Part shown: positions 6,557 to 12,605 of the stretch, in pieces
Numbering within the stretch: position 1 is the stretch's first letter
Layout of the letters: every line of letters starts with the position of its first letter
NCBI RefSeq assembly: GCF_039535475.1
Contig: NZ_BAAAXG010000026.1
Location: forward strand, 372,001 to 436,000
From: Streptomyces showdoensis
Lineage (GTDB): Bacteria > Actinomycetota > Actinomycetes > Streptomycetales > Streptomycetaceae
Length of the DNA: 64,000 nucleotides
Reading direction: 5' to 3'
Translations under genes and position numbers: made by a program
The notes under the pieces: generated by a model
Databases searched by the model: none
What the model saw: the letters and a program-made list of their open reading frames with translations, nothing else
Told to the model about the DNA's origin: nothing

Positions 6557-7735
6557 CTAGTAGACCGGCTTCTCGGGCTCGATCTGGTTGACCCAGCCGA
6601 TCACGCCGCCGCCGACGTGCACGGCGTCCGCGAAGCCCGCGGCCTTGAGCACGGCGAGGACTTCCGCACTGCGGACACCCGTCTTGCAGTGCAGGACGAT
6701 CCGCTTGTCCTGCGGGAGGTCCTGGAGGGCGGTGCCCATCAGGAACTCGTTCTTCGGGATCAGGCGCGCACCGGGGATCGAGACGATCTCGTACTCGTTC
6801 GGCTCGCGGACGTCGATGATGTCGATGTTCTCGCCGTCGTCGATCCACTCCTTGAGCTGCTTGGGAGTGATCGTGGAGCCGAGCGCCGCCTCCTGGGCCT
6901 CCTCGGACACGACGCCGCAGAAGGCCTCGTAGTCGATGAGCTCGGTGACGGTCGGGTTCTCGCCGCAGACCGCGCAGTTCGGGTCCTTGCGGACCTTCAC
7001 CTGGCGGTACTGCATCTCCAGGGCGTCGTAGATCATCAGGCGGCCGACCAGCGGGTCGCCGACGCCGGCCAGGACCTTGATGGCCTCGGTGACCTGGATG
7101 GAGCCGATGGACGCGCAGAGCACGCCCAGGACGCCGCCCTCGGCGCAGGAGGGGACCATGCCCGGCGGCGGGGGCTCCGGGTAGAGGCAGCGGTAGCAGG
7201 GGCCGTACTCGGACCAGAAGACCGAGGCCTGGCCGTCGAAGCGGTAGATCGAGCCCCACACGTACGGCTTGTTGAGCAGCACGCACGCGTCGTTGACCAG
7301 GTACCGGGTCGCGAAGTTGTCGGTGCCGTCGACGATCAGGTCGTACTGGCTGAAGATGTCCATCACGTTCTCGGCTTCGAGCCGCTCTTCGTGGAGGATC
7401 ACGTTCACGTACGGGTTGATGCCGAGGACCGAGTCCTTCGCGGAGGCCGCCTTGGACCGGCCGATGTCCGCCTGGCTGTGGATGATCTGGCGCTGCAGGT
7501 TCGACTCGTCGACCTCGTCGAACTCCACGATGCCGAGCGTGCCGACACCGGCCGCGGCCAGGTACATGAGGGCGGGCGAGCCGAGGCCGCCCGCGCCCAC
7601 ACAGAGCACCTTCGCGTTCTTGAGCCGCTTCTGCCCGTCCATCCCGACGTCCGGGATGATCAGGTGGCGGGAGTACCTGCGGACCTCGTCAACGGTGAGC
7701 TCGGCAGCCGGCTCGACCAGGGGTGGCAGCGACAC
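6557..7735 (-). CDS. moeZ: Adenylyltransferase/sulfurtransferase MoeZ
   Basis: A 392-residue two-domain protein. Residues 1-270 form the E1-like ThiF/MoeB domain that adenylates the C-terminal Gly of sulfur-carrier proteins (MoaD, ThiS, CysO): nucleotide loop GAGGLG at 47-52, SNLQRQ Arg motif, zinc pairs CYRC and CAVC. Residues about 290-392 are a rhodanese domain with active Cys350 in HCKTGVRSAE, which supplies the sulfur. The product feeds molybdopterin and other sulfur-transfer pathways in the cytoplasm. The GTG start at 7735 follows GAGG by 6 bases. In mycobacteria the next upstream gene on this strand encodes a DUF3152 protease; here two operons (7.8-18.6 kb) intervene. The family call is very secure. 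Confidence 0.95.
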   Translation of the reverse strand: MSLPPLVEPAAELTVDEVRRYSRHLIIPDVGMDGQKRLKNAKVLCVGAGGLGSPALMYLAAAGVGTLGIVEFDEVDESNLQRQIIHSQADIGRSKAASAKDSVLGINPYVNVILHEERLEAENVMDIFSQYDLIVDGTDNFATRYLVNDACVLLNKPYVWGSIYRFDGQASVFWSEYGPCYRCLYPEPPPPGMVPSCAEGGVLGVLCASIGSIQVTEAIKVLAGVGDPLVGRLMIYDALEMQYRQVKVRKDPNCAVCGENPTVTELIDYEAFCGVVSEEAQEAALGSTITPKQLKEWIDDGENIDIIDVREPNEYEIVSIPGARLIPKNEFLMGTALQDLPQDKRIVLHCKTGVRSAEVLAVLKAAGFADAVHVGGGVIGWVNQIEPEKPVY

Positions 7736-7806
7736 GGAGACCTCATCAATACTCTGGTCGGTATTTCACTACGGTGGTTCTGTCGACAACACTGCCACGG
7801 CCCTTC

Positions 7807-8559
7807 TCATTCCGAGACACCCCGTCCGATACGCGAGACGATTTCGTCCCAGTAGCCGGGCAGCGTGTGGAATTGGTCGCTTTGTCCCGGCAGTCCGCGG
7901 CGGTCGGTGAAGAAGACCGTCGCCGCCCCCTGCCAGCGGGCGATCCGCAGCGCCTCCTCCAGATGGGTGCGGGGCACCCCGTGGACCAGGTGGACGAACT
8001 TCCCCGCCGGGTGGTCGGCCGTCCACTCCGCCACCTGCGACCAGCGGTAGTCCGCCCAGGCCCCGGAGAAGGTGACCAGCTGGTCGGCCACCTCCGCGTA
8101 GCCGGGGTACGGGTGGGTTCCGTGGCCCAGCACGAGATGGGCCGCCCGGTCGCCGCGCTCCCCGTCGAGGAGCGCCTCCAGCGTCGCCGAGATCCGCCGC
8201 ACCGCCGGCAGGTCGGCCCGGTCGGCGGGGGCCCGGTCCAGGTAGAAGCCGTCCGCCTTGTACCAGTCGAGGAAGCGCTGGGCGTCCGAGACGACCTCGC
8301 CGAACGGGCGCGAGCCGTGCCGCAGGTCGATGTGGCCGAGCACCCGGACGCCCGCGTTGCGCAGCTTCCCGGCGGCCTCAAGACAGTGCGGGTCGGGCCG
8401 GGCGCCGGGCCCCTCGGCGACGTTCAGGACGGCCCAGTGGACGGGGGTGCCGGGGCGGGTGAGCTCGGCCCACTCGACGGGGGCGAGCAGCGGGTGGGCG
8501 TAGCCGGGGACGCCCACGCCCATCGCCAGGGCCGTGCCGGTGGCGGCTAGATGCGGCAT
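7807..8559 (-). CDS. Spherulin-4 / GH135-like glycoside hydrolase family protein
   Basis: A 250-residue TIM-barrel protein of the spherulation-specific family 4 (PF12138), whose fungal member Sph3 (GH135) cleaves galactosaminogalactan. Visible strands are GVGVPGYAHPLL at the N-terminus, VLGHIDLRHG, and DGFYLDRAPAD where the family carries its catalytic acid; here Asp is followed by Arg rather than the acidic partner I recall from Sph3. There is no signal peptide, so it should be cytoplasmic unless the start is wrong. The start overlaps the epimerase stop by 13 bp, so the two are translationally coupled, and this is the last gene of the glycosyltransferase operon. It may trim or sense the polysaccharide or a lipid-linked precursor. 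Whether it is catalytic is uncertain. Confidence 0.8.
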   Translation of the reverse strand: MPHLAATGTALAMGVGVPGYAHPLLAPVEWAELTRPGTPVHWAVLNVAEGPGARPDPHCLEAAGKLRNAGVRVLGHIDLRHGSRPFGEVVSDAQRFLDWYKADGFYLDRAPADRADLPAVRRISATLEALLDGERGDRAAHLVLGHGTHPYPGYAEVADQLVTFSGAWADYRWSQVAEWTADHPAGKFVHLVHGVPRTHLEEALRIARWQGAATVFFTDRRGLPGQSDQFHTLPGYWDEIVSRIGRGVSE

Positions 8560-9506
8560 GCCGCCTCCATCCAGATGTCGGCCAGCGACTCCTCCAGGTT
8601 GATCCGCGGCCGCCAGCCGAGCCGGTCGCGGGCGGTGCGCACGTCGGCCTGCTGCCAGGGTCCGCAGCCGTCGGGGTACGGGAAGGGGGCGGCGGCCAGC
8701 TGCTCCGCGATGGTCTCGGTGCGCGGGGCGCCGATGACCGGGCGCGGCGGCGGCCCGTCCAGCTCGTGGAGGGTGCCGGCGAATCCGGCGACGCGGGCCA
8801 GCACGGCGGCGGCGTCGCGGAGCCGGACCGCCCGGCCGGTGCCGATGTTCACGACGCCCTGGGCGGCGGAGAGCGAGGCCGCGTGGACGGCGCGGGCGAC
8901 GTCCCGTACGTCCACGAAGTCGCGCTGCACGCCCAGGCCGCTGAGCTTGAGCTCGCCGTCGCCGGCCTGCATGGCGCGGCGCATGGCCTCGGCGAGCCGG
9001 CCGAGCGGGGAGCCGGCCGGGGTGCCGGGTCCGACCGGCGAGAACACCCGCAGGACGACCGCGTCGAGGCCGGAGCCCAGGACGAGTTCGGTCGCGGCCA
9101 GCTTGGACACGCCGTACGGGCCGCCGGGGCGGGGCACGGCGTCCTCGGCGGTGGACGAGCCGGGCTGGCTGGGCCCGTACTCGGAGGCGCAGCCGACCTG
9201 GACCAGGCGGGCGCCGCAGCCGCTGCGGCGCAGGGCCTCGCAGACGGTGGCGACGGCGACGGTGTTGTGCCGGGTCAGCTCCCGGGCGCCGCCGCGGGTG
9301 GCGCCCGCGCAGTTGACGACGACCCCGGGGTGGACGGCGTCGAGGAAGCGGGTCAGGGCGCCGGGGCTGCCGGTCGCGAGGTCGAACCGTACGTCGGCGT
9401 CGTCGCCGCGGCCGAGGGCGGTGAGGTGCACCGCCGGGTCGGCGAGCAGCCGGTCGGCGACGAAGCGGCCGATGAATCCGTTGGCTCCGAGCAGCAGCAC
9501 CCTCAT
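8547..9506 (-). CDS. NAD-dependent epimerase/dehydratase (extended SDR), sugar-nucleotide type
   Basis: A 319-residue extended short-chain dehydrogenase. The Rossmann loop GANGFIG is at residues 7-13, followed by a VNCAGATRGG strand; the active site is the Ser/Tyr/Lys set (CASEYGPS, then YGVSKLAATE), and the family motif for substrate binding continues as LRVFSPVGPG. Such enzymes interconvert UDP-sugars, for example C4 epimerisation of UDP-GlcNAc and UDP-GalNAc. The ATG at 9506 has GAAGGGG 7 bases upstream. Its stop overlaps the spherulin-4 start, and it lies downstream of a DUF3492 glycosyltransferase. It is therefore a good candidate to supply that enzyme's sugar donor, in the way PelX does in Pel systems (inference). 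The exact sugar cannot be read from sequence. Confidence 0.88.
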   Translation of the reverse strand: MRVLLLGANGFIGRFVADRLLADPAVHLTALGRGDDADVRFDLATGSPGALTRFLDAVHPGVVVNCAGATRGGARELTRHNTVAVATVCEALRRSGCGARLVQVGCASEYGPSQPGSSTAEDAVPRPGGPYGVSKLAATELVLGSGLDAVVLRVFSPVGPGTPAGSPLGRLAEAMRRAMQAGDGELKLSGLGVQRDFVDVRDVARAVHAASLSAAQGVVNIGTGRAVRLRDAAAVLARVAGFAGTLHELDGPPPRPVIGAPRTETIAEQLAAAPFPYPDGCGPWQQADVRTARDRLGWRPRINLEESLADIWMEAACRI

Positions 9507-9556
9507 CGTGCGGCCCCTTCGTGCCGACCGGCCGTGGTGTCGGGTTGGCGCGTCAT
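9503..9556 (-). CDS. Possible 17-residue upstream peptide coupled to the epimerase
   Basis: A short ORF (MTRQPDTTAGRHEGAAR) begins at the ATG ending at 9556, with AAGGAG 11 bases upstream, and its TGA overlaps the epimerase ATG (ATGA). The arrangement fits translational coupling in the gap between the membrane protein and the epimerase. The peptide resembles nothing I know, and the epimerase has its own ribosome site, so this may be chance. Confidence 0.3.
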   Translation of the reverse strand: MTRQPDTTAGRHEGAAR

Positions 9557-9637
9557 GTCTCTTGGGTCTCCTTGGGATGGTCCAGGTACGGGGGGCGCGC
9601 CCGCGGCGTCGGCTCCGCGGGTGCGCCGGGTGGGGGG

Positions 9638-10879
9638 TCAGCGGGCGGTGGCGTGCGCCGAGGCCCGGGAGAGGGCGGTGGTGGCGTGGGCCAGGAGGGC
9701 GAGGGCCGCGGCGCCGCACACGAGGGCGGGTACGGCGGCGGGTCCCCAGGTGTCGACGGCGGCGCGGACCGGGGCGTCGAGGAAGCCGCAGCCCGGGAGC
9801 CGGGCGGCGAGGACGAGGGCGAGGGCGAGGGCCTCGGCGGCACAGGCGGCGGCGAGGGCGTGGGCGGCTGCCTCGGGCGGGCCGTGCGCCGTGAGGAGCC
9901 GGGCGAGCAGCAGCAGGGCGCCGAGGGCGAGCGCGCCGGGGCTGAAGCCGGTGAGGGCGAGGAGCCCGGCGAGCAGGACGAGGGGCAGGGCGACGGTGGA
10001 GAGCAGCAGCGGGCGGACGCCGGCCGCGAAGTCGGCCAGGCCCCGGCTGGCGGCGAGCCGGCGGCGGGCCCGGACGGCGAAGAGCCGGGCGCACCAGGCG
10101 GCGGGGGCGACGGCCAGGGAGAGGGCGAGCAGCGGGCCGGTGTCGAGGATCCAGGCGCCGTCGGCCGGACCGGTGCGGGCGCCGGGGACGACGAGGGTCC
10201 ACGCGCCGTCGGGGCCGCCGGTCAGGAGCTGGTCGAGGAGGCCGTCGCCGGCCACCGCGTAGGCGAGCAGCCAGAGGGTCCACAGGCGGGCGGCGGGGGC
10301 GGTGCGGCCCTCGGCGTGCAGGGGGCCGCGGCGTACGGCGACGAGGAGGGCGGCGGCGAGGCCGAGGGCGCCGAGCGCGCCGACCGCGCCGCGCAGCGGC
10401 CCTTCGGTGAGGGCGAGGCCCGCGGTGGCGAGGGCGGCGACGGCGCCGGGGGCACAGGCGGCGAGCGCCCAGGCCGCCGTTCCGCCGGGGGCGGCCGGTG
10501 CGGGTGCGGGGCGGGCGGGTGGCGCCTCGCCGCGGGGCACCCGGGCGTAGAGCTCCTCGGCGAGCGAGAAGACGTCCCGGTGCCGGAAGCGGGCGGCGGT
10601 GCGGTCGGTGACGCCGTGGGCTTCGAGTCCGGCGGCGATCTCCAGGGGGTCGACCGCCCGTTCGCACAGCTCGCGGTGGCGGTGCATCAGGGCCTTGACG
10701 GGGTCGGCGGTGGCGCGCCGGGGGGCGCGGGGGCCTAGCGCGGGGGCGGGCTGCTGAATCGCTTCGGCGGGGGCGGCCGTGACCGGGAGGGCGAGGGCGG
10801 CCGGGACGGCGGCCTGGAGCAGGGCCTCGGAGCGGGGGTCCCAGGGGCCCGGGCTGGTGGGTGCGGCGGGGCCGCGCAT
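9638..10879 (-). CDS. Polytopic membrane protein of the polysaccharide operon, unrecognised family
   Basis: A 413-residue protein with a soluble N-terminus and about eight hydrophobic segments from residue 130 onward (for example LWTLWLLAYAVAG, LLLSTVALPLVLLAGLLAL). The N-terminal region has a helical motif rich in His and Arg (MHRHRELCERAVDPLEIAAG then FRHRDVFSLAEELYARVPR) that looks like a conserved functional element. I do not recognise a family. The ATG at 10879 is preceded by AAGGAGG 7 bases upstream, which decides it over the ATG at 10900. It sits 13 bp after the glycosyltransferase stop and shares its transcript. By position it is the only candidate in this operon for polymer export or membrane docking of the glycosyltransferase, as PelG/PelD/PelE are in Pel systems; that is inference. 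Confidence 0.8.
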   Translation of the reverse strand: MRGPAAPTSPGPWDPRSEALLQAAVPAALALPVTAAPAEAIQQPAPALGPRAPRRATADPVKALMHRHRELCERAVDPLEIAAGLEAHGVTDRTAARFRHRDVFSLAEELYARVPRGEAPPARPAPAPAAPGGTAAWALAACAPGAVAALATAGLALTEGPLRGAVGALGALGLAAALLVAVRRGPLHAEGRTAPAARLWTLWLLAYAVAGDGLLDQLLTGGPDGAWTLVVPGARTGPADGAWILDTGPLLALSLAVAPAAWCARLFAVRARRRLAASRGLADFAAGVRPLLLSTVALPLVLLAGLLALTGFSPGALALGALLLLARLLTAHGPPEAAAHALAAACAAEALALALVLAARLPGCGFLDAPVRAAVDTWGPAAVPALVCGAAALALLAHATTALSRASAHATAR

Positions 10880-10892
10880 GGGTGTGCCTCCT

Positions 10893-12605
10893 TCAGGCAT
10901 CGGGGTCTCCCGTACCGGCCGCGGCGGTGACCGGCTGGTCCGCCCAGCTGCCCGGCAGGTACGCCTCGGCGGGGTGCGCGAAGGGCACGGCCCGGGCGGT
11001 GCGGCGGCACACCGGTGCGCGGGAGAGGAGTTCGAGGTAGATGCCGCGGAACGCCGCCAGGTTCTGCTCGACGGTGAACAGCTCCAGGGCGCGGGCGCGG
11101 GCCGCGGCGCCGAGGCGGTGGCGGCGCTCGGGGTCGCGCAGCAGCGCGAGGCAGGCGTCGGCGAGGGCCTTGGGGTTGCGCGGGGGGACGACGAGTCCGG
11201 TGCCTCCGATGACCTCGACGACGGCGCCGACGTCGGTGGAGACGGTGGCCCGTGCGCAGAACATCGCCTCGACGAGGCTCACGGGGAAGCCCTCGACGAC
11301 GCTGGACAGGACGACGACGGCGCTGGAGGCGTAGGCCTCCTCCAGGGTGGGGGCCTCGGGGCCGCCCAGCTCCTCGAAGGAGACCGGGTTCTCGCCGACG
11401 GCGTGCCGGCCGGCGGCCTCGTCGGGGAAGAGCTGCTCGGCGAGGTTGCGGCAGTGCGCGAGGTACCCGGCGGCGCCGGGCTCGCGCGGCGGCGCGGCGA
11501 TGATCCGCAGCCGGGCGTCGGGCTGCCGGCGGCGCACGTCGGCGAAGGCGTGCAGCAGGGCGATGAGGTCCTTGGCGGGTTCGGCGCGGCCGATCCAGGA
11601 GAGGGTCGCCGGGTCGCCGCTCTCCTCGTCCTCGCCGACCTCGGCGAAGCGGTCGGCGGGCATGCCGGGGTGGACGGTGCGGAGCTTGGCGCGGTCGGCG
11701 CCGCACCGTTCCTGCCAGCGGCGGGCGTGGGCGTTGCCGGGGGTGAGGAGGTCGGCCCGGCGGTAGACCTCGGCGGCGAGCCGGCCGTGGAAGGCGGCGA
11801 GCAGGGCCCGGACCGGGGTGGCGAGCGGGGCCTCGGCGGCGGCGAGGTAGTGGGCGCGCAGCTGGACGCCGTACTCCGTGACGAGCAGCGGGGTGCCGAA
11901 GAAGCGTTTGGCCAGGAGGCCGGGGAGCGCCGCCGCCCCGGCGGAGGCGGCGTGGCAGAGGTCGGCCCGGCCGAGGCCCGCGCCCTCCTCGTCGTACCAG
12001 TCCAGGGAGAGCGGGCGCAGGGCGCGCTCCAGCCGGTCCAGGAAGGCGAGGTGGTCGGGGACGGTGGCGGCGGCCAGGCCGCGGCGGGCGCCGGGGGCCC
12101 GCCCGGCGGACTCCAGGACGCGGACGGCGGCCTCGGAGCGGAGCGCGGAGCGCAGTCCGCCGCGGGAGCGGGCGAGTTCGGCGAGCCCGTAGAGCCCGGC
12201 GGCGAAACGCTCGGCGGCGTCCCCCGCTTCCCCGGAGCCCCCGGCGCCCGCTGCTTCCCCGGCCCCGGGGCCCGCGGCGCCGGGCCCCGCGGCGCCGGGC
12301 CCGGTGGGCGGCTGCTCGGCGCAGATGCCGGCGGCGAGGTCGCGGAAGGCGGTCTCGAAGCCGCGGCGTTCGCGCCGCCCGTAGCCGCGGCCGTCGTCCT
12401 CGGGCGCCCAGAGCGAGGCGGTGCGGACCTCGCGGACGTTGGGCGGGAGGGGCAGCCGGGCGCCGGACTCCTGGCGGGCGTCGCGGCTGAGGGCGTAGAC
12501 GTCGAACTCGTGCGGGGCGAGACCGCGGACGAGCCGGTCGCACCAGAGCCCGGACTCACCCGAGGCATACGGATAGCCACTCTCCGTGAGCAGTCCGATC
12601 CGCAT
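10893..12605 (-). CDS. GT4 glycosyltransferase with N-terminal DUF3492 (PelF-like)
   Basis: A 570-residue cytoplasmic glycosyltransferase. The N-terminal half starts MRIGLLTESGYPY and carries the DUF3492 signature (ESGLWCDRLVRGL) found in PelF, the UDP-GalNAc-dependent enzyme of Pel polysaccharide. The C-terminal half is a GT4 Rossmann domain (LSWIGRAEPAKDLIALLHAF, then SSVVEGFPVSLVEAMFC with the E-x7-E donor motif, and GLVVPPRNPKALADA). An Ala/Gly/Pro-rich linker near residue 100-120 is an insertion. The ATG at 12605 follows GGGGG by 7 bases; longer ORF forms would extend through the upstream hairpin and are rejected. It is the first gene of a four-gene operon with the membrane protein, the epimerase and the spherulin-4 protein. 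The donor and product are unknown. Confidence 0.88.
   Translation of the reverse strand: MRIGLLTESGYPYASGESGLWCDRLVRGLAPHEFDVYALSRDARQESGARLPLPPNVREVRTASLWAPEDDGRGYGRRERRGFETAFRDLAAGICAEQPPTGPGAAGPGAAGPGAGEAAGAGGSGEAGDAAERFAAGLYGLAELARSRGGLRSALRSEAAVRVLESAGRAPGARRGLAAATVPDHLAFLDRLERALRPLSLDWYDEEGAGLGRADLCHAASAGAAALPGLLAKRFFGTPLLVTEYGVQLRAHYLAAAEAPLATPVRALLAAFHGRLAAEVYRRADLLTPGNAHARRWQERCGADRAKLRTVHPGMPADRFAEVGEDEESGDPATLSWIGRAEPAKDLIALLHAFADVRRRQPDARLRIIAAPPREPGAAGYLAHCRNLAEQLFPDEAAGRHAVGENPVSFEELGGPEAPTLEEAYASSAVVVLSSVVEGFPVSLVEAMFCARATVSTDVGAVVEVIGGTGLVVPPRNPKALADACLALLRDPERRHRLGAAARARALELFTVEQNLAAFRGIYLELLSRAPVCRRTARAVPFAHPAEAYLPGSWADQPVTAAAGTGDPDA

Follow-up and report, generated by a model that had tools for sequence, protein, structure and literature searches.

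The window analyzed here is a 64,000-nucleotide stretch of the Streptomyces showdoensis genome (contig NZ_BAAAXG010000026.1, positions 372,001 to 436,000), and our subject is a cassette of four minus-strand genes at 7807..12605 of that stretch. In order, they encode a glycosyltransferase (GT) with DUF3492 and GT4 domains, a membrane protein (MP), an SDR protein of the epimerase/4-ketoreductase type and a spherulin-4/GH135-like protein (SPH); a moeZ-like gene follows. The cassette is probably an operon for an exopolysaccharide of the galactosaminogalactan (GAG) type, a sticky amino-sugar polymer of Aspergillus, and this operon was probably reduced in place beside moeZ, in the Streptomyces family. 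We read it so because intact, half-reduced and dead-enzyme versions form a gradient at moeZ, and we infer that the direction of change was reduction, not separate assembly. The cassette is a variant of an operon kind already known, the Agd3-type operon of Actinobacteria reported in 2020 (PMC7229062).

The four-gene unit is real, widely conserved and not due to chance, and in this the sequence-only reading of the window held. Order and strand of GT-MP-SDR-SPH-moeZ are kept in all 20 Streptomyces loci of a set chosen by match to MP. The same order is found in 73 of 80 named Streptomyces loci, which were found via SDR and are the best 80 of at least 478. The two sets (L053-L072 and L107-L186) partly overlap and are not independent samples. 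Five of the seven exceptions are records of 5.7–8.0 kb in which GT, and in one case also MP, was not found; the other two have no GH135 gene at the script threshold. The exceptions too carry a GH135-like protein tail before moeZ. Mean pairwise identity in the named set is 0.926 for SDR, 0.749 for SPH, 0.706 for GT and 0.569 for MP. Within the genus, DUF3492 matches turn up in 96 of 101 genomes and fall into a strong and a weak class, with the window GT in the weak one. For MP, 36 of 37 genomes of the genus gave a match, fragmented in some of them and only weak in one (G001). A search by title and abstract of literature that mostly did not include subscription papers found no description of the moeZ-side cassette.

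Fuller relatives of the cassette occur elsewhere. The same genome carries, at C26:3.48 Mb (locus L034), genes for an Agd3-like secreted protein, a PelF-type GT, a 472-aa MP relative, a spherulin-4 protein and a GH114 protein (294 bits), in that order. With an SDR added, these are the parts of the Aspergillus GAG cluster, which consists of uge3, sph3, gtb3, agd3 and ega3 (PMC4817252). Agd3-type operons with a GT, a membrane protein, GH114 and sometimes spherulin-4 are the kind reported for Actinobacteria in 2020 (PMC7229062). We call such operons A-type. Across 21 A-type loci, where ‘not found’ means below 25 bits, GT and the MP relative are present in all 21, GH135 in 19, an SDR related to that of the window in 12 and GH114 within the fetched stretch in 9. 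By its own terms, the sequence-only reading would have fallen if actinobacterial DUF3492 genes regularly stood without the other three. This was not the outcome: those of the A-type loci come with the partners just counted, and a GT without GH135 was seen only beside moeZ in other genera.

An intact operon of this kind also lies near moeZ. For 14 other genera we examined 20 loci on the moeZ side, selected by their SDR, with ‘not found’ meaning below 30 bits. In one genome of a sister genus, locus L204 and its upstream stretch L227 together hold an Agd3-like gene, GT, MP, a dehydratase, a nucleotidyltransferase (NTP transferase), SDR, GH135 and GH114. The Agd3-like product scores 663 bits to the L034 protein, the GH135 protein has both catalytic residues and the GH114 protein scores 276 bits. 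The gene order equals that of the window once the genes missing from the window are omitted, and moeZ lies 2.5 kb after GH114. This adjacency is unusual, because moeZ was found in none of the 21 other A-type stretches (10–20 kb each).

Between this operon and the window cassette stand intermediate states. A GH135 gene is present in 9 of the 20 loci; the catalytic Glu is kept in two (L196 and L204) and is Asp in L197. In 11 of the 14 genera at least one locus contains both GT and MP, and 7 of the 14 genera retain the GT residues. Further losses are seen in genera g96, g97, g104 and g107. GH135 was not found in any of the 27 loci read from these four genera, and GT residues K345 and E438 are lost in all 27, one of which has a gap at position 438. 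Some of the changes are mild or partial: K345R in nine, R340 kept in one and E446 in seven. A single locus from a fifth genus (L200) has likewise lost K345 and E438. In L197 (genus g103) we also observed that the SDR catalytic Tyr is Phe (GAFATAKL), beside the Glu to Asp change in GH135, and that GT and MP were not found.

Under this reading, the ancestral set would have been an Agd3-like deacetylase, a GT4 glycosyltransferase, a MOP-fold MP, a 4,6-dehydratase, a nucleotidyltransferase, SDR, GH135 and GH114. The first gene (deacetylase), the middle pair (dehydratase and nucleotidyltransferase) and the last gene (GH114) would have been lost. MP would have shed about three helices, the GH135 barrel its acid/base Glu, and the SDR of Streptomyces would have exchanged its catalytic-site Ser for Cys.

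Several observations weigh against this reading. The intact operon was found in only one of the 20 other-genus loci, and a bioB-like gene on the other strand separates its GH114 from moeZ. In the midpoint-rooted GT tree, L204 is the basal branch of the A-type group (support 100/99), outside the window-type GTs, and its position in the SDR tree is unsettled. The Agd3 (CE18 deacetylase) label is itself distant. At E<=0.01 the Agd3 domain of Pfam (PF25115) is recognized in 9 of the 14 A-type proteins that we aligned, with a best E of 1.1e-6. The L034 protein, at 21.7 bits, stays below the curated cut-off of 27.6, and at E<=0.01 no Pfam family matches the L227 protein. Single A-type sequences gave no significant match to the solved Agd3 structure (6nwz). 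A profile of 14 sequences, which cover 14 of the 22 stretches that carry an Agd3-like gene, did match it (E 0.0014) over 238 positions ending at the catalytic-domain HVDD motif, identified by eye. By sequence, then, the A-type Agd3-like proteins are only distant relations of Agd3, and the 2020 paper also calls the bacterial homologues distant (PMC7229062). The tree positions and the bioB-like gene would suit independent histories, in which an early A-like duplicate gave rise to the cassette and the intact moeZ-side operon was inserted later, in one genome. That account would have to explain the same gene order, the same neighbor, the absence of moeZ from the other A-type stretches and the intermediate active sites in L196 and L197, and we consider it improbable.

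SPH (7807..8559, minus strand, 250 aa) matches PF12138 with 80.8 bits. The catalytic residues of its fungal relative Sph3 are Asp166 and Glu222 (PMC10485009). One paper prints the nucleophile as Asp196 (PMC12054363) and the other as Asp-166 (PMC10485009); our alignment to the Sph3 structure 5c5g supports the Asp166 numbering, and Asp166 and Glu222 map by one constant offset. The window protein has Asp108 at the first position and Ser165 at the acid/base position. Both Asp and Glu are kept in all 20 A-type GH135 rows (from 19 loci). In the Streptomyces cassettes, Asp is kept in 18 of 21 rows of the smaller set and in 61 of 78 readable rows of the named set, and Glu in none of either. SPH as an active GH135 hydrolase was a candidate we rejected, since the acid/base Glu is absent from every Streptomyces cassette copy read; the protein is predicted to be catalytically dead. 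By eye, no signal peptide is visible in GH135 of either type (L034 13489-14175; window 8559-7807), so SPH is presumably cytosolic. In L034, signal peptides are visible by eye in the neighboring Agd3-like and GH114 proteins, and fungal Sph3 is described as bound to the membrane with its activity outside (PMC12054363).

The fixed downstream neighbor of SPH is the moeZ-like ThiF-rhodanese gene (6557..7735, minus strand), which we do not count among the glycan genes. Across the SPH stop codon lies a sigma-R-like promoter element, GGAAT-N18-GTT (7788..7813, minus strand), which most likely serves moeZ. In the named set, the element occurs once per locus on the gene strand in 80 of 80 loci, always at the SPH stop codon; 989 kb of the opposite strand contain 4 matches. 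Such an element would account for the nearly invariant Ser/Thr-Glu-stop end of SPH. It is also present in 38 of 40 moeZ-side loci of other genera, including loci where GH135 was not detected, and hence needs no GH135 gene.

The promoter element raises the question of whether the cassette is a decaying relic, in which only SDR and moeZ with its promoter are useful and GT, MP and GH135 are carried along because the GH135 stop codon lies within the moeZ promoter. The loss of pieces genus by genus would fit, as would the element on the GH135 stop throughout the named set and the fast evolution of MP. Median dN/dS in Streptomyces is 0.12 for SDR, 0.14 for moeZ, 0.31 for SPH, 0.36 for GT and 0.56 for MP; for the pseudo-GTs it is 0.40 in g107 and 0.46 in g96. 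The ratio of second to third codon-position divergence is 0.13 for SDR, 0.16 for moeZ, 0.41 for SPH, 0.45 for GT, 0.63 for MP and 0.52–0.53 for pseudo-GTs. Since all these values are below 1, the proteins still seem to be selected, MP least clearly. As a further point against our reading, dN/dS is compressed in very GC-rich genes, where open frames are cheap, and constraint on MP is weakly shown. A relic is nevertheless quite unlikely: the codon-position ratios of the dead GH135 and the pseudo-GTs are not near 1, the promoter element occurs in loci without a detected GH135, and the GT catalytic residues are kept in nearly every Streptomyces copy. R340, K345, E438 and E446 are retained in 75, 76, 76 and 76 of 76 rows of the named set. 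One Streptomyces genome of the 21-row set (L068) has Arg for the GT Lys and Asp for the first Glu of the Ex7E motif (E438); decay of GT may perhaps be beginning within Streptomyces too.

SDR (8547..9506, minus strand, 319 aa; Epimerase, PF01370) is better conserved than any other cassette gene. Cys occupies the catalytic Ser position in 81 of 81 rows of the named set (Cys106 in the window), and YxxxK is retained. The 12 aligned A-type SDRs have Ser there. The sequence-only reading had called the protein a sugar-nucleotide epimerase and matched it to the UDP-GlcNAc/GalNAc epimerase of Pel systems. Its nearest solved relative is a GDP-6-deoxy-D-lyxo-4-hexulose reductase (E 3e-20), and its nearest solved structures are GDP-4-keto-6-deoxyhexose reductases, so the epimerase label is unsafe. 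We also rejected a UDP-hexose 4-epimerase identity, given a score of 33.4 bits to GalE, far below the cut-off of 262.3, and a Ser-Tyr-Lys triad with Cys for Ser. The A-type loci offer a hint of the sugar in their own polymer. In L083 (8934-11614), a 4,6-dehydratase and a nucleotidyltransferase, the latter recognized by eye, lie between MP and SDR; that this operon and L204 (3912-6891) have their own dehydratase, nucleotidyltransferase and SDR suggests a 4-keto/6-deoxy derived sugar in the polymer, not galactosamine alone.

The locus could also exist chiefly for SDR, as a core enzyme of nucleotide-sugar metabolism (a 4-keto reductase or an epimerase) that feeds another pathway while the rest is accessory. 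At E<=1e-60 SDR has matches in 112 of the 121 family genomes and in 15 of 17 genera, it evolves about as slowly as moeZ, and its closest solved structures are reductases of this type. Its presence in the 20 other-genus loci is no evidence here, since these were chosen through SDR. We regard this explanation as unlikely, because the GT active site is kept in Streptomyces and because the other genera so often keep GT and MP, with GT residues intact in half of them.

GT (10893..12605, minus strand, 570 aa) belongs to a divergent ‘B’ clade. It was proposed to be PelF-like, and that stands: it has the DUF3492 and GT4 domains of the PelF/Gtb3 type and scores 100.5 bits to NF038011 (PelF), barely over the NCBI cut-off of 100. 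Its L034 paralogue scores 173.7 bits. The label could mislead. A-type GTs are named ‘PelF’ in source records, and since the window GT exceeds that cut-off too, by half a bit, a reader would expect a Pel system. PelG (PF16933) had no match anywhere in the genome, while the Thermotoga maritima control did match. PelD (PF16963) also had no match in the genome, though no control genome matched it either. The unit contains no PelA-type deacetylase, and its neighbors are moeZ and an oligopeptide ABC transporter, with no fifth carbohydrate gene. Of the ‘compact Pel’ description the PelF-type GT survives, but PelG was not found and the closer relatives are Agd3-like/GH135/GH114 operons. The one-to-one correspondence to Pel parts is also unsupported at GH135, which lacks the catalytic Glu, and at SDR, which is nearest to a GDP-4-keto-6-deoxyhexose reductase.

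MP (9638..10879, minus strand, 413 aa) matches nothing in Pfam or NCBIfam at E<=1, and no Pfam family fits its full-length L034 relative. Our MP alignment holds 27 of 31 frames that a motif script found in 40 loci, plus the window and L034 proteins; start codons were picked by the script. The sequence-only reading counted eight helices. The AlphaFold2 model instead predicts an N-terminal five-helix domain followed by nine helices of at least 14 residues. The L034 paralogue is a 12-helix form with two six-helix bundles, and a second structural aligner placed it convincingly in the MOP transporter fold; the window model gave an unconvincing alignment to that fold. Foldseek found no match at E<=0.001 for either model. 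Its top rows for the L034 model are MATE and WzxE, with probability near 1 and E above 0.001. MP was thought to have a part in polysaccharide handling. The fold of the full-length relative favors this, but polysaccharide flippases share the MOP fold with drug exporters. We regard GT and MP as probable partners because natural fusions join them: among the 120 proteins listed, five (P0182, P0186, P0187, P0188 and P0189; 968–994 aa) are GT-MP fusions, three of which align over 94% of the joined GT+MP query.

These results also bear on whether the cassette is a working compact Pel/GAG-like operon, whose four proteins make, export and trim a secreted amino-sugar polymer. The retained R/K and Ex7E residues of a PelF-type GT, its score just above the NCBI cut-off, the MOP fold of the full-length MP relative and the co-occurrence of relatives of all four parts elsewhere are in its favor. 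It is very unlikely all the same, with the GH135 acid/base Glu missing from all Streptomyces copies read, no deacetylase beside the cassette, an MP shorter than the 12-helix form and no PelG found in the genome.

The four genes had been described as tightly spaced. All four are present, but the MP/SDR gap (9507..9637, minus strand) is 131 bp; A-type operons L083 and L204 hold their 4,6-dehydratase and NTP-transferase genes here. The oligopeptide ABC transporter lies upstream of the cassette. We dropped a functional link between the two, as the transporter was not found in part of the 20 Streptomyces loci.

What a reduced GAG-type operon might do can be sketched tentatively. In the likeliest working model, which we still hold to be less probable than not, GT would dock on MP at the inner membrane face and would still transfer a sugar, from the nucleotide sugar finished by SDR, onto a lipid or short glycan. 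In the cytosol, the GH135 barrel, being dead, would bind this glycan instead of cutting it. With no adjacent deacetylase or secreted hydrolase, the product would be neutral and cell-bound, not a cationic matrix polymer. We infer GT activity, GT-MP pairing in S. showdoensis and the sugar identity. It is conceivable, though on balance we doubt it, that an exopolysaccharide synthase operon was turned, family-wide, into a conserved complex made partly of dead enzymes with a new task, for instance as a membrane-associated sensor or binder of a nucleotide sugar or glycan, and no longer made a polymer. The dead parts, kept together with an unusually conserved SDR, differ: they are GH135 without Glu in Streptomyces, where SDR has the Cys, and GT without Lys/Glu in four sister genera, where SDR has the usual Ser. 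With intact, half-reduced and dead-enzyme versions at one fixed neighbor, the fate of an exopolysaccharide operon becomes directly testable.

The cassette connects three things usually treated separately, namely bacterial Pel, the fungal GAG cluster and a core Streptomyces locus. A bacterial origin has been proposed for the fungal cluster (PMC4817252, PMC7229062), and its synthase Gtb3 is one piece, with the GT joined to a membrane part (PMC4817252). The bacterial GT-MP fusions are a possible source form for it, by analogy. None of the 120 proteins listed with these fusions has a fungal name, and the fungal link thus rests on papers.

Among known systems, the GH135/Sph3 proteins share the fold family of SPH, by the PF12138 profile and the 5c5g alignment; SPH differs in the replacement of Glu222 and in keeping Asp166 in just 61 of 78 readable Streptomyces rows. 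The MOP superfamily transporters (MATE, Wzx, MurJ) share the fold of the full-length L034 MP, of which the window MP is a shortened relative. PelG is likewise a MOP-type protein. The Gram-positive Pel operon pelDEADAFG (PMC7112168) has in common with the cassette a PelF-family GT and a membrane partner; the window differs in that PelG is unmatched in the genome and no PelA-type deacetylase lies beside GT. The Aspergillus GAG cluster likewise has an SDR, a GH135 and a GT functionally joined to a membrane part (PMC4817252). Compared with it, the window cassette lacks the deacetylase, GH114 and the GH135 Glu, its SDR is nearer to 4-keto reductases, and GT and MP are separate genes. The actinobacterial Agd3 operons share with it a cytoplasmic GT, a multi-spanning membrane protein and, in some, spherulin-4 (PMC7229062); the cassette differs from these in having no Agd3-like or GH114 gene beside it, a dead GH135, a shortened MP and a fixed site at moeZ. 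The better comparison for the cassette is a GAG-type operon, not a standard Pel operon.

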